A stretch of DNA of 64,000 nt from Morganella morganii (GTDB taxonomy: Bacteria > Pseudomonadota > Gammaproteobacteria > Enterobacterales > Enterobacteriaceae). The DNA lies in the NCBI RefSeq assembly GCF_019243775.1, contig NZ_CP069157.1, positions 2,987,418 through 3,051,417 on the forward strand. The letters run 5' to 3'. The notes below the pieces were generated by a model. The model saw only the letters and a list, made by a program, of their open reading frames with translations. It was not told where the DNA came from and made no database searches. The translations under genes and the position numbers were made by a program. Below, piece by piece: positions 34,207-40,687 of the stretch (within the stretch, counting starts at the first letter, position 1; every line of letters starts with the position of its first letter).

Positions 34207-34836
34207 ATGGATGCCGTTATTCATTTAATTAACTGTGCTGATTTACCAGGCAACAATATCAATTTCATGCTTGATAATATGAATTGTGAAGTAAAATCTT
34301 ATTCATCTGAGCAGGATTTTCTGAAATATTATGTTAATACGCCAAAAGAGCATGCCCGTGAATGTATTATTCTGGAAGTGGGAGAATCATCTGCTGAGGC
34401 ATTCTATCTTATCGATGAACTCAAACGCCTGAAAAGCATTATTCCTGTGATTGTTATCACCGCTTATCCGTCTTTTGAGACCTGCCGTCGTGCATTTAAA
34501 GCGGGTATTCTGGAATTCTTCAAGAAACCGATTAATTCAGAGCTGTTAGTTAATGCGATTCATGACGCATTTAATCAATATGAAAATAGCCTCACTAAGT
34601 ACCATAGATATCAACGCTTTAAAGATAAATTCAGCAAGTTATCTGCCCGTGAGAAAGAGGTCATGGATATGATTCTGGAAGGAAATAGCAGTAAAGAAGC
34701 TGCACAAAAATTATCATTGTCGCCGCGCACTGTTGAAGTACACCGTTCTAATATGTATACCAAGCTGCGTATTAAATCATTACCACAGCTGGTGCAGGAA
34801 TATGATTTTTATAAAAACTATTCAGATTCAATCTGA
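34207..34836 (+). CDS. FixJ/NarL-like regulator with degenerate receiver
   Basis: 209-residue regulator. The C terminus is a LuxR-type helix-turn-helix (LSAREKEVMDMILEGNSSKEAA, then LSLSPRTVEVHRSNMYTKL). The N terminus is a CheY-like fold in which the conserved Thr85 (VITAYPS) and Lys107 (FFKKPI) remain, but the phosphoacceptor Asp is Glu57 (CIILEVGE) and the acidic pocket is lost (LINCADL instead of a D-D pair). It is therefore probably not switched by ordinary phosphorylation. No kinase is adjacent. GAGGAG precedes the ATG. Low G+C like its surroundings. Its targets are unknown; the coiled-coil operon is the nearest. Confidence 0.8.
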   Translation: MDAVIHLINCADLPGNNINFMLDNMNCEVKSYSSEQDFLKYYVNTPKEHARECIILEVGESSAEAFYLIDELKRLKSIIPVIVITAYPSFETCRRAFKAGILEFFKKPINSELLVNAIHDAFNQYENSLTKYHRYQRFKDKFSKLSAREKEVMDMILEGNSSKEAAQKLSLSPRTVEVHRSNMYTKLRIKSLPQLVQEYDFYKNYSDSI

Positions 34837-35409: not shown

Positions 35410-38205
35410 TTATTCTATTTTCAGCACGTTCAGTTTGATCATAGACATTGAGTTCGGTGGTATCTGCCCTTCGATACCGGCAACACCATAACCGCCTTCC
35501 GGTTTGATATACACATCAACCGCACCGCCTGCGCCGGCAAGTGAAACGAATTTAGCCAGGTCACCCGGTAATTCATTGAACGGAATAACCGCCGGTGCAT
35601 TTACCGGATATGACACGGTTACTTTACCGTCAGTTAGTTTCTCATGCATCGCAAATGTGACTGTTTTTCCTTTCAGCGCTTTATATTTCTGTCCCTGTTT
35701 GGTGATACGGTAATAAACGTCCGGCGTCATTTTGGAATAATTCTGGCGCTCCAGGCGGGCGATCAGCTCCTGGTTTTTCCGTTTATTCAGCTCACCAACC
35801 TGCTGGAAAGTATAAGCCGTCACGGCTTTATTTTTTTCTTCTGCTTTCGCAATTTGCGTATTCAGCGTGGTATTTTCAGTCCGCTGTGCACTGACAACCG
35901 CCTTTTGCTTATCCATTTCTTTCTGCAATGCGGTATATTTTGCCGTGAGATCAGCATTTTCTTTCAGCTTAGCCGCCGCTTTGGCAAGTTCTGCATCTTT
36001 ATCTGCCAGCTGCTTTTTCTGGTTATCAAGCTGAGTATTCAGCTTAATTAATTCCGCATCAGATTTTGCCAGTGCTTCAATCTGCTGTGTTTTCTCTTTT
36101 AAGGCTTTATCCAGCTGATCAGCCCGCTGCTGTTCTGCGGCTAATTTTTTATTCAGCTCAGCATTATCCGCCTGAACAGTTCTGCTCTCTTTATCTGCAC
36201 CGGATACTTTTGCCGACAGCAATTGCTTATCCGCCGTCAGCTGCGCAATTTTTTGTTCCAGTGTGGCTTTATCCACGGTCAGCGCAGCCACCTCTTTTTT
36301 CAGATTATCGCTCTGGCGGGTATTATCCGCCTCACGGCTCTGTAACTGAGCAGTCAGCTTAAGTTTATCAGCCTCACGCTGCTGTAATTCTTTTTCCAGT
36401 GTCTGCAACTGAGCCGCCATTTTTGCGTTATCGCTATTTTGGGCGTTCAGCTCTGTAATCTGTTTTTCCAGCGCGGTTTTATCGGCGGCCAGAGTGCTGA
36501 GTTCTTTTTTCAGCTTGTCACTCTGTGCTGCCGCGTCTTTATTCTGACCGGCCAGCTGTTCGGCAAGCTTCTGTTTTTCTGTTTCGGCGTTTTTCAGCTT
36601 CTGCTCAGTATCGCTCAGGTCGCGGGTGACTTTCGCCAGATCGGCGTTTTTGTCATTCAGCAGCGCCGCATTTTTCTCTGACTGTGCTTTATCTGCCGTC
36701 AGCTGTGTAATCTGTTTTTCCAGCGCAGTTTTATCCGCAGCCAGAGTGCTGAGTTCTTTTTTCAGCTTGTCACTCTGTGCTGCCGCGTCTTTATTCTGAC
36801 CGGCCAGCTGTTCGGCAAGCTTCTGTTTTTCTGTTTCGGCGTTTTTCAGCTTCTGCTCAGTATCGCTCAGGTCGCGGGTGACTTTCGCCAGATCGGCGTT
36901 TTTGTCATTCAGCAGCGCCGCATTTTTCTCTGACTGCGCTTTCTCTGCCGTCAGCTGTGTAATCTGTTTTTCCAGCGCGGTTTTATCCGCTGCCAGGGCG
37001 GCGAGCTCTTTTTTCAGCTGTGCACTCTGTTTGTCACTGTCAGCATTACCGGCCGCAATCTGTGCCGCCAGTGCCTGTTTTTCTGTATCACTCTGTTTCA
37101 GTTGCTGTTCCAGCGTATTCAGTTGCTGAACCATTTTTGTCATATCTGCATTTTTACTGTTCAGTTGTGCGATACTTTTTTCAGCCTGTGCCTGCTCTTC
37201 GGTCAGCCGGGTGATTTGCCCGGTCAGCGCCGCTTTATCAGCGGCCAGTGCGGTCAGTTCTTTTTGCAGCTGCACATTCTGCTGCTGGTTATCGGTGGTT
37301 TTCTGCAGTAATTCAAGCGCGATACGCTGTTTTTCCGCTGTGCTTGCTTTCAGCTGTTTTTCCAGCTCTGCAACCTGCGCGGTGGTTTTCTGCATTTCTG
37401 CTGTTTTCGCATTCAGCAGTTCGGTATTTTTGGCTGAGGCGCTGCTTTTGTCTGCGGTCAGTGCAGTGATCTGTTTTTCCAGTGCTGCTTTTTCTGCCGT
37501 CAGTCCGTCGAGAGATTTTTTCAGCTCTGCGCTCTGTTTCGCACTTTTACTGCCCTGCTCCGCCAGTTGTGCGGTCAGTGCCAGTTTTTCGGTATCACTT
37601 TGTTTCAGCTTACTTTCTGTTGCCGTCAGCTGTTGCGTAAGTTTTGCGAGGTCGGCATTTTTACTGCCGAGCAGCGCGAGGTTCTCGTCAGCCCGGCTCT
37701 TCTCTGAATTCAGCTGTGCAACCTGTTTTTCAAGCGCCGATTTATCCGCTGTCAGCGCGGTGATCCTTTTTTCCAGATCGGCTGTCTGTTTACCGTTTTC
37801 GGTTTCCTGAGATTGCAATTTTGCTGTCAGGCGCTGTTTTTCCGCATCCTGAGCCTGCAATTGCTTTTCCAGCTCCGTCAGCTTCTGCGTGACTTTTGCC
37901 ATATCGGCATTTTTATCCTGCAACAGCGCGAGATTTTTCTCTGCCTGAGCATTATCGGATTTCAGCCCGGCTACCTGTTTTTCCAGTGCCGCTTTTTCTG
38001 CCGCCAGCGCTGTCAGATCTTTTTTCAGCGCGTCACTCTGTTTGCTGTATTCACCGGTCAGTGCGAGGATTTTGTCATTCAGCTGCTGTTTTTCCGCATC
38101 CCGCTGAGCCAGCTGTTTTTCCAGCTCCGTCAGCTTCTGCGTGACTTTTGCCATACCGGCATTTTTATCCTGCAACAGGGCGAGATTTTTTTTCCGCCTG
38201 AGCAT
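35410..38205 (-). CDS. Giant repeat coiled-coil protein, C-terminal part with FKBP-like domain
   Basis: 931-codon frame that is the downstream part of a gene split by a frameshift near 38190. Residues 1 to about 800 are nearly pure coiled coil, rich in Ala, Lys, Gln, Glu, Leu, built from 84-residue repeats (12 heptads) of the type LAADKTALEKQITQLTADK...KNADLAKV...LKKEL. The last 100 or so residues form a globular domain: VYYRITKQGQKYKALKGKTVTF, KLTDGKVTVSYPV, VIPFNELPG, VDVYIKPEGGYGVAG, IPPNSMSMIKLNVLKI. This follows the FKBP peptidyl-prolyl isomerase pattern, though the catalytic pocket looks altered. Its ATG at 38205 overlaps the upstream part but has no signal peptide. I do not know this protein. 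Confidence 0.75.
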   Translation of the reverse strand: MLRRKKNLALLQDKNAGMAKVTQKLTELEKQLAQRDAEKQQLNDKILALTGEYSKQSDALKKDLTALAAEKAALEKQVAGLKSDNAQAEKNLALLQDKNADMAKVTQKLTELEKQLQAQDAEKQRLTAKLQSQETENGKQTADLEKRITALTADKSALEKQVAQLNSEKSRADENLALLGSKNADLAKLTQQLTATESKLKQSDTEKLALTAQLAEQGSKSAKQSAELKKSLDGLTAEKAALEKQITALTADKSSASAKNTELLNAKTAEMQKTTAQVAELEKQLKASTAEKQRIALELLQKTTDNQQQNVQLQKELTALAADKAALTGQITRLTEEQAQAEKSIAQLNSKNADMTKMVQQLNTLEQQLKQSDTEKQALAAQIAAGNADSDKQSAQLKKELAALAADKTALEKQITQLTAEKAQSEKNAALLNDKNADLAKVTRDLSDTEQKLKNAETEKQKLAEQLAGQNKDAAAQSDKLKKELSTLAADKTALEKQITQLTADKAQSEKNAALLNDKNADLAKVTRDLSDTEQKLKNAETEKQKLAEQLAGQNKDAAAQSDKLKKELSTLAADKTALEKQITELNAQNSDNAKMAAQLQTLEKELQQREADKLKLTAQLQSREADNTRQSDNLKKEVAALTVDKATLEQKIAQLTADKQLLSAKVSGADKESRTVQADNAELNKKLAAEQQRADQLDKALKEKTQQIEALAKSDAELIKLNTQLDNQKKQLADKDAELAKAAAKLKENADLTAKYTALQKEMDKQKAVVSAQRTENTTLNTQIAKAEEKNKAVTAYTFQQVGELNKRKNQELIARLERQNYSKMTPDVYYRITKQGQKYKALKGKTVTFAMHEKLTDGKVTVSYPVNAPAVIPFNELPGDLAKFVSLAGAGGAVDVYIKPEGGYGVAGIEGQIPPNSMSMIKLNVLKIE
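36491..36994 (-). repeat. Near-identical tandem 252 bp repeat
   Basis: Positions 36491-36742 and 36743-36994 are almost the same sequence over 252 bp (84 codons). They encode two copies of the coiled-coil unit LAADKTALEKQITQLTA...KLKKELST. About nine units of this length, most more diverged, make up the rod. Such recent duplication suggests unequal recombination changes the rod length. Confidence 0.85.
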
Positions 38206-39460
38206 TATCGGATTTCAGCCCGGTAATCTGTTTTTCCAGTGCCGCTTTTTCTGCCGCCAGTGCTGTCAGGTCTTTTTTCAGCGCATCACTCTGTTTACTG
38301 TTTTCACCGGTCAGTGCGAGGATTTTGTCACTCAGTTGCTGTTTTTCCGCATCCCGCTGAGCCAGCTGTTTTTCCAGCTCCGTCAGCTTCTGCGTGACTT
38401 TTGCCATATCGGCATTTTTGCTTTCCAGCAGCGCGAGATTTTTATCTGCCAGCGCTTTTTCTTTATTCAGCGCCGCAATCTGTTTTTCCAGGGAGGCTTT
38501 TTCGGCTGTCAGGGCCGTGACCTGACCTTCCGCCTGACCAAAACGGGCCAGGTTTTCGCTTATCTGCTGATTGAGTGAATCAATCGTTTTGCGGTTCTGT
38601 TCCAGCTCGGCGGACAGTTTGGCGCTGTCGCCTTTTGCCGCAGCCTGTAACTCATTATTTGCCAGAGTCAGATTGCTGAGTTCTGTCTCTTTTTTCGCAA
38701 TATCTGCGAGCGCCTGTTCATAATTATGCTGAACATTCCGGTACTTTTCGTTCAGTGACGCGAGTTCACGCTTCACGTCCTGTAATTTCAGGCGGGTGAG
38801 GCGCAGTTGTTTCTGCGGATCAGACGGCGTAAACCAGGTTTCCGGTTTCAGCACACGGGCAACCGTCAGCGGCAGATCAGAGAAATACGTCATTGAACGG
38901 AAAGGTTCACCCAAAATGGCAAACAAGGCTTCCGGTGTGAGAGTCAGTGAGGAGGTCATACGGGAAGGAACCGGCGAAAACACAAATCCCCGGTGATTTC
39001 CGCCCCATTTCTGGCTGTCACGGACCAGATAAGCCGGAGACCACTGCGGGTATCCGACCGGAACAGGATTGGTCACAACAACCGGTTCCCTGACCACAAT
39101 ATTTTCGCATTGTGCCGGTACGGAGATCCCCGGGGTTGTTGTGTCAGTTTTCTGTGCGGCAGCTGTTTGTGTCCGGCTTTCCTGTGCGGACGAAACAGTG
39201 CGTTTTCCTGTGCGGGCAGCTTTACGTGTGCCCTGACGCTGTGACTGAGTGGCCTTACCCGCCGTATTTACCGGCGGTGTAACCCGGGTTTCGGGAGACC
39301 TGCCAGGTTGCTGCACTGATACCGGAAAATTGCCTGATGCTTTTTCAGCCTGAATATAACGGTCAAAATCTTCAATAACCTGATTAAATTCAGATGCAGT
39401 TGCCGGTTGCACTGCCGCAAACAATGCGACAGTAATACACAACCTGATGTTCAGTCTCAT
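38165..39460 (-). CDS. Giant coiled-coil protein, N-terminal part with signal peptide
   Basis: 431-codon frame forming the start of the same gene. It begins with a signal peptide (RLCITVALFAAVQPATASEF), so the protein is exported. A proline, threonine and serine-rich stretch follows (residues 45-110), then a globular segment of about 100 residues with VTNPVPVGYPQWSPAYLV and PSRMTSSLTLTPEALF, then coiled coil from about residue 205 and the first 84-residue repeats. After the A8 tract it runs out of frame and stops at SRPVAG. Joined to the downstream frame it would be about 1350 residues. The start overlaps the lipoprotein stop by 4 bases (ATGA), so translation is coupled. Confidence 0.75.
   Translation of the reverse strand: MRLNIRLCITVALFAAVQPATASEFNQVIEDFDRYIQAEKASGNFPVSVQQPGRSPETRVTPPVNTAGKATQSQRQGTRKAARTGKRTVSSAQESRTQTAAAQKTDTTTPGISVPAQCENIVVREPVVVTNPVPVGYPQWSPAYLVRDSQKWGGNHRGFVFSPVPSRMTSSLTLTPEALFAILGEPFRSMTYFSDLPLTVARVLKPETWFTPSDPQKQLRLTRLKLQDVKRELASLNEKYRNVQHNYEQALADIAKKETELSNLTLANNELQAAAKGDSAKLSAELEQNRKTIDSLNQQISENLARFGQAEGQVTALTAEKASLEKQIAALNKEKALADKNLALLESKNADMAKVTQKLTELEKQLAQRDAEKQQLSDKILALTGENSKQSDALKKDLTALAAEKAALEKQITGLKSDNAQAEKKSRPVAG
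38186..38193 (-). other. A8 tract with one-base frameshift
   Basis: Eight T on the plus strand (eight A on the coding strand) inside repeat unit 2. Matching points of neighbouring repeats are 252 bp apart elsewhere but 253 bp here (38033 against 38286), so one base is inserted. With seven A the frame reads AEKNLALLQDKNA, as in the next unit; with eight it reads AEKKSRPVAG and stops. It may be a sequencing error, a mutation, a phase-variable switch or a slippage site. Confidence 0.85.
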
Positions 39461-39918
39461 AACCCGTTAACCTTCTCCAGGGTATTCTCAATAGACAGAA
39501 CAGAATAATAACGAACCTGGGCACACATCACTTTGGTTTTCGCTTCAATCGACATCTTCAGTAATTTAAGCGTATCCGGGCTGGCGGTTCTTTCGAGCTG
39601 ACGATACAGTCTGTTGATCTGGCTGATTTCGCTGAAACCGGCGACCATCTGACTGTAATCTTTCGGAGAAATAGTTTTGAGCGAGTCGAGTTCTTTAACA
39701 CACATACTCAGCTCAGGCGAAATCTGTCCGGAGGGTTGCTGTAATTCAGGTCTTGGCAAAGGTGCAGTCGTTCTCACCGGCTCCTGCTCCGCCGGCTGAA
39801 CCGGTTGTGCCGCAGGCTTCGGCGCAGAGGGTGTCGTTAATGAACAGCCGGACAGGGTTACAACGCCTCCCAACAGGAGTATCCCCGCCATTTTGTTCAG
39901 TGCTGTCTTGGATAACAT
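39457..39918 (-). CDS. Small lipoprotein coupled to the coiled-coil gene
   Basis: 153-residue predicted lipoprotein: KMAGILLLGGVVTLSGCSLTT has lipobox LSGC, with Cys25 or so becoming lipidated; Ser at +2 favours the outer membrane. A Pro/Ala/Gln-rich linker (residues 30-65) follows, then a helical domain with two Cys (SMCVKELDS and KVMCAQVRYYS). TAAGGTG before the ATG is the ribosome site. It overlaps the giant gene by 4 bp, so the two proteins are likely made in step and may form one envelope complex, the lipoprotein acting as the outer-membrane anchor. Not recognised from any named system. Confidence 0.78.
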   Translation of the reverse strand: MLSKTALNKMAGILLLGGVVTLSGCSLTTPSAPKPAAQPVQPAEQEPVRTTAPLPRPELQQPSGQISPELSMCVKELDSLKTISPKDYSQMVAGFSEISQINRLYRQLERTASPDTLKLLKMSIEAKTKVMCAQVRYYSVLSIENTLEKVNGL

Positions 39919-40687
39919 AGTTTCACCTTAGAGAAATAATTTGGCCACTGCTGCGTTGTGCAAAAATAGGCACCAATTGTATAGCCAGAGCCGTGGAAAA
40001 TAAACTCTGACGTGTCACAACTCAGGCTTATGTAACATACACTACGTCGCGGGCGAGTCTGAACTATTCGTTTTTTGTTATCCGAACACCTTACTGCAGC
40101 CGCACAATCTGAATTCTCACGCTTGTCATCGTCAACGATTTGGCTTCGTTATTATTCTGCTCTGCCGGTCTGTTTCTTACAGGCCGAGAACATAAATTAG
40201 TCAGTTTACCTTACAAAACGGTACCGGAATATTTGCCGGACAGTTTGTAACAAGTCTTAAAAATAAGTATCACCCGGTATCTGTCCATCATAAAAAGAAT
40301 ATAAGCACAGTTGTACCTGAGGCGGCATTATATCTTATTCACGAATAAAATCGATTAACCGCCGCAGACAACCATTCTGTAAATATGAAAATAAAACGAC
40401 AGACACAGAACAAATACATAACCCGCTGTTATCCCGGATGATTCACGGCAGTATAAATGAATAATTCCGTTATGGATTCTCTTTTTTTCAATTATGCGAC
40501 CGGGATTCCGTTCCTTTTTCCGGGTTGATTATTATCATTATTTTCTTAGTAATCTATTATCTTCTTATAATTTAAAAGCGACAGAATTTATCAGGCTTAT
40601 TACGCATTATATGATTAGTAACGCTATCAAACTATAAATTATCATTCTGCTTCTGCGGTACTCCGGGATTATCAATACAGACACATT
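39919..40687. other. Gene-free spacer
   Basis: About 770 bp, increasingly AT-rich, between the lipoprotein gene and the xdh control region. TATACA near 39977-39982 on the minus strand may be the -10 of the lipoprotein promoter. GGTCTGT-TTCTT-ACAGGCC (around 40167-40185) is a small stem. No supported ORF; a small RNA cannot be excluded by eye. Confidence 0.4.

Follow-up and report, generated by a model that had tools for sequence, protein, structure and literature searches.

Here, we describe a gene pair of Morganella morganii, located in a window of 64,000 nucleotides (the whole stretch of DNA that was analyzed), that encodes a lipoprotein and a long exported protein ending in an FKBP-fold domain that has lost its catalytic pocket. 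We assign a probability of roughly 0.45 to the interpretation that this pair represents, in the genus Morganella, a widespread and so far undescribed module, which would be anchored in the outer membrane and would serve adhesin subunits, or their machine, as a scaffold or holdase without catalytic activity. A function as a fimbria or adhesin helper is probable because, in other bacteria, the pair lies beside or inside fimbria and adhesin gene sets.

The locus and its two proteins

The lipoprotein gene (39457-39918, minus strand, 153 aa) was delineated as an open reading frame (ORF) with the lipobox LSGC followed by S. Its stop codon and the start codon of the long gene (39460) overlap by 4 bp in a common ATGA, and the ORFs confirm the arrangement proposed in the first-pass annotation, namely, a 153-residue lipoprotein overlapping an exported long gene by 4 bp. 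The lipoprotein consists of the lipobox Cys25, a Pro-rich linker (residues 26-67) and a three-helix domain (residues 68-151), and its AlphaFold model comprises a flexible tail and the three-helix domain, with helices at 68-83, 85-108 and 114-151 and pLDDT mostly >90. In the family alignment (n = 59), Cys25, Cys73 and Cys132 are invariant, the lipobox Cys is present in 59/59 members, and the residue at +2 is never Asp; a lipobox lacking Asp at this position is consistent with a predicted location in the outer membrane. The lipoprotein is present in 6/6 genomes of the genus, with dN/dS of 0.07-0.17 between the window copy and its genus relatives. No Pfam family was matched, the NCBIfam scores were low and spurious, sequence matches to the PDB were nearly all confined to the signal-peptide end, and a Foldseek search with the model yielded no match at E 0.001 or better and no known fold.

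The long gene starts with a Sec signal peptide, MRLNIRLCITVALFAAVQPATA (39392-39460, minus strand; read directly from the sequence), followed, in residues 24-215 (38816-39391, minus strand), by the motif SEFNQVIEDFDRYIQ and a linker that were recognized from alignment with relatives and from composition, with P, S and T together making up 30% of this 192-residue region. The motif is retained in Proteus- and Providencia-type relatives, and other relatives have, at this position behind the signal peptide, an equivalent conserved segment of short length (PALLQFAEQYQQ is one example); the order of parts in the relatives is signal peptide, short segment, disordered linker, coil, FKBP_N and FKBP_C. 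In the window, the linker leads into a continuous coiled coil of ~1000 residues (35746-38815, minus strand), built, according to periodicity and repeat analysis, of 84-aa units (12 heptads, 252 bp). The coiled-coil rod that had been proposed earlier is borne out by hydrophobic periodicity at 3.5 residues (power 6.0 vs a maximum of 0.85 in 500 shuffles) and by the complete lack of proline in 976 residues. Coil length varies between species of the genus. Crescentin, SMC, FUSC and similar proteins were considered as relatives of the coil and rejected, the similarity being one of coiled-coil composition only.

In this genome, a one-base frameshift divides the long gene into an ORF of 431 aa (38165-39460) and one of 931 aa (35410-38205), both on the minus strand; the break, located from the ORFs and by comparison with relatives, falls in an A8 run of the coding strand (38186-38193, minus strand). 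The joined protein of about 1350 residues described in the first reading is thus real in its parts, but was obtained by bridging this frameshift. Among five genus relatives, three possess the long gene as a single ORF (1364, 1600 and 1086 aa), the fourth copy runs off its contig, and the fifth has several breaks and comes from an assembly that contains another broken gene; in the closest relative, the frame is open at the A8 site. The break may stem from an error in sequencing or a mutation of recent origin, or the tract may be slippery. Programmed frameshifting or phase variation at the A8 run was also considered, a sequencing error being at least as likely because the inverse-autotransporter gene of the same genome (L102:9961-17503) is also split at a homopolymer, a G7 run, the second such break. 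Given the frameshift, the long gene may be silent in this genome.

The 5' leader of the operon (39919-40118, minus strand) is far better conserved in the genus than the remaining intergenic region: in the six genus genomes compared, its first 73 bases are identical (73/73), with lipoprotein dS of up to 0.5. The leader has no Rfam match and is limited to the genus, with no clear counterpart outside it. A gene for a response regulator with a LuxR-type HTH (34207-34836, plus strand) is convergent to the long gene and is retained beside it in the five genus genomes whose locus extends to this point; in other genera, too, the pair repeatedly has LuxR-type regulators as neighbors. A search of the plasmid collection identified no copies of the window region.

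The FKBP-fold domain and its pocket

The C-terminal domain (35413-35745, minus strand) adopts, as initially suggested, the FKBP fold, which is supported by a Pfam FKBP_C match above the gathering score (E = 1.5e-4), an AlphaFold model in which a long helix leads into the FKBP sheet (pLDDT 93.5), and Foldseek matches of this model to the structures of LpMip and FkpA (E about 2e-9 to 3e-9). FkpA of E. coli was the first match for a profile of the domains of canonical relatives (E = 2e-45) and is therefore the nearest known relative; it is probably the source of the pseudo-FKBP family. The FKBP_N dimerization domain was found in relatives (L025, L026, L027 and L029) and not in the Morganella proteins.

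The pocket was scored at nine positions (Y26, F36, D37, F46, V55, I56, W59, Y82 and F99 in human FKBP12 numbering), which are occupied in the window protein by M, T, V, I, L, P, L, Y and I, in this order. In the family (44 domains), substitutions at seven of the nine (Y26, F36, D37, F46, V55, I56 and W59) are essentially universal: the Ile56 site is Pro in 44/44, Phe36 and Asp37 are absent from the family counts, and Trp59 is kept once. The pocket is essentially intact in 53 FkpA control proteins from the same kinds of bacteria, defined as genome-scan matches (narrower alignment A4) below about the first 25 that looked like true FkpA. With dN/dS of 0.04-0.10 (0.04-0.07 in comparisons with genus relatives), the FKBP domain is subject to strong purifying selection, and no other part of the gene is as constrained. 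Because the pocket is lost family-wide and yet the domain is strongly constrained, it appears to be a conserved pseudo-enzyme, and a working isomerase tip is not supported. The public annotation 'FKBP-type peptidyl-prolyl cis-trans isomerase' is probably wrong; a chaperone function without catalysis is possible.

FkpA of E. coli and Mip of Legionella are the best structure matches of the family, and FkpA is the best sequence match. Like these proteins, members of the family are Sec-exported and possess the FKBP_C fold and, in most relatives, the helical part FKBP_N; unlike them, they have lost the catalytic pocket, carry a linker and a coil of up to about 1000 residues or more, and are usually accompanied by a co-translated, putative outer-membrane lipoprotein, and the Morganella member has no detectable FKBP_N. 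The PPI subunit of the type 9 secretion translocon (PDB 6h3j, 8gl8), an FKBP-fold protein in an outer-membrane translocon complex, matches in structure and sequence at the level of the FKBP domain only and belongs to another channel and another lineage; by analogy, it shows that such a role would be feasible for an FKBP-fold protein.

Distribution and gene neighborhoods

The lipoprotein family was identified in 101/295 genomes and 60/154 genera sampled of the GTDB family and is hardly present outside it. The pair of lipoprotein and coiled-coil protein, for which the first-pass annotation had proposed a search beyond the genus, turned out to be widespread, including Proteus- and Providencia-type loci; it is not a Morganella oddity and is common in gut-type bacteria. 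Among 70 loci examined, which were chosen by score in mutually related genomes, 43 contain the FKBP partner, and in 30 the downstream gene has the same 4-bp ATGA overlap. The partners range from 354 to 1600 aa, some of them (354-409 aa) lacking the long coil, and in operons of E. coli and Salmonella, the FKBP gene can occur without an adjacent lipoprotein gene. In two related genomes (L101, L104), the FKBP pair is accompanied, at a distance of several kb, by a second, distant lipoprotein of the family; no autotransporter was detected in the stretch examined there. This spread, the kinship with FkpA, the gene-order link to chaperone-usher fimbriae and the link of the lipoprotein family to inverse autotransporters had all been missed in the first reading.

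An usher was found in 14/43 pair loci; at 10.8 ushers per genome, the expected share is about 5% (p about 2e-8, with relatedness ignored), and pairs are six times commoner near chaperone-usher operons than expected; the corresponding count in FkpA control loci was 0/55. On replicons of E. coli, E. albertii and Salmonella, the FKBP gene is inside the usher operon, and in the E. coli chromosomal operon, it overlaps both neighboring pilin genes; this version is rare in the species (16/5426 genomes matched). In Serratia entomophila, the FKBP gene is located between two usher operons; no FKBP or isomerase is mentioned in a paper on sef, the fimbria encoded by the amber-disease plasmid of Serratia. 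A DsbA-family gene 3' of the E. coli operon with the FKBP gene is likewise a folding-type factor encoded with fimbriae; DsbA-family proteins are thiol oxidoreductases, whereas the long protein described here looks like a pseudo-isomerase scaffold. In about two thirds of the pair loci, the Morganella, Proteus- and Providencia-type ones among them, neither an usher nor an autotransporter lies within about 10 kb.

Where the lipoprotein lacks an FKBP partner, an inverse autotransporter is present in 8/27 loci vs about 1.4% expected from about 2.8 per genome. Inverse autotransporter loci (intimin/invasin type) are adjoined by the same lipoprotein family, mostly without the FKBP partner, unlike the Morganella pair. 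The two other family lipoproteins of this genome flank its inverse-autotransporter locus, one on each side. An inverse autotransporter with two family lipoproteins was observed at G000:C1:394950-409020 (L102, L031), L100, L108, L109, L117 and L089; the two often lie one on each side of the autotransporter and are convergent in L100 and L109. Small HTH (MrpJ-like) regulators also occur at the inverse-autotransporter locus of the window's genome.

In two loci, a Pfam-tested Wzy_C/Wzy_C_2 gene (L085:10390-12183, which also matches PglL_A, and L094:7977-9653) is directly upstream of or overlaps the lipoprotein gene, and L088 and L092 contain genes resembling it. Wzy_C/Wzy_C_2 domains are typical of O-oligosaccharyltransferases, and this placement suggests that a fimbrial subunit or the P/S/T-rich linkers may be glycosylated.

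Judging from gene order, the common denominator of these neighborhoods appears to be the export or assembly of surface adhesins at the outer membrane. The neighborhood fits an assembly helper, quality control or a surface component alike and does not discriminate among them. The searchable literature (few subscription journals) yielded no description of the pair or of an FKBP in fimbrial operons, in agreement with the earlier statement that no described system has this shape.

Proposed role and alternatives

Under the scaffold or holdase interpretation, the long protein would be an FkpA relative that lost its isomerase pocket and acquired, ahead of the FKBP domain, a disordered linker followed by a coiled-coil arm whose length varies freely. 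Both proteins would be exported by Sec, and, as the lipobox and the model suggest, Lol would place the lipoprotein in the outer membrane, where a flexible linker would carry the three-helix domain, in which Cys73 and Cys132 probably form a disulfide. Docking of the long protein to this domain, or to an outer-membrane assembly platform, may occur through the conserved short segment that follows its signal peptide; the coil would dimerize and lie along or fold within the periplasm, and the pseudo-FKBP end may bind client segments of pilins or adhesins, or the usher or barrel, without isomerizing them, such that bound clients would be concentrated or held at the export site. FkpA itself binds the passenger of the autotransporter EspP (PMC8151025). 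The Morganella pair would act in trans, because no adhesin genes adjoin it at the Morganella locus; with the locus being solitary, its role there is an extrapolation from relatives.

A broader version of this interpretation, which we consider speculative and somewhat doubtful, is a general Enterobacterales adhesin-export module, in which one lipoprotein family would serve both chaperone-usher fimbriae and inverse autotransporters, and the coiled-coil pseudo-FKBP would be a periplasmic arm, variable in length and without catalytic function, that captures subunits for the outer-membrane machine or itself couples to this machine.

An unlikely alternative is a surface fiber, with the lipoprotein anchoring or exporting the long protein, the repeat coil forming the stalk and the pseudo-FKBP the binding tip. 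The strong variation of repeat copy number in the genus (1086, 1364 and 1600 aa), which is common for surface proteins, an arm longer than the periplasm is deep, the P/S/T-rich linkers and the PglL-like O-glycan ligase gene that adjoins the pair in some operons are all compatible with a fiber. However, no outer-membrane export signal was seen, the closest relative, FkpA, is periplasmic, the partners of 354-409 aa without the long coil could not form a stalk, and the FKBP gene lies among assembly genes in some operons. It is less probable still that the pair functions as a general isomerase-independent holdase for outer-membrane proteins that is not adhesin-specific, as might be expected from the solitary position of the Morganella, Proteus- and Providencia-type copies and from the participation of FkpA in the general OMP chaperone network (PMC8151025), but not from the enrichment of fimbriae and adhesins in the gene order. 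We give slightly less credence to an envelope tether or spacer, whereby the continuous coil would link the outer membrane, via the lipoprotein partner that is frequently translationally coupled to it (4-bp overlap in 30 loci), to peptidoglycan or the inner membrane: no peptidoglycan-binding or transmembrane domain was found, and the wide range of arm length, from none to >1000 residues across relatives and with differences even in the genus, disfavors the fixed-length ruler or spacer considered initially. Finally, an active periplasmic prolyl isomerase or chaperone on a long arm, as annotated, is very improbable, the fold being secure and the database annotation favoring it, but the pocket count speaking against the activity.

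Few surface systems have been studied as well as chaperone-usher fimbriae and adhesins of the intimin/invasin type. The lipoprotein family is present in about a third of the sampled genomes, yet no description of it was found in searchable papers, and its pseudo-isomerase partner sits inside some fimbrial operons under the annotation of an active enzyme. If the link to these adhesins holds, the pair would represent an uncharacterized accessory step in adhesin biogenesis and a clear case of the FKBP fold being reused without catalysis, along with an annotation error to correct.
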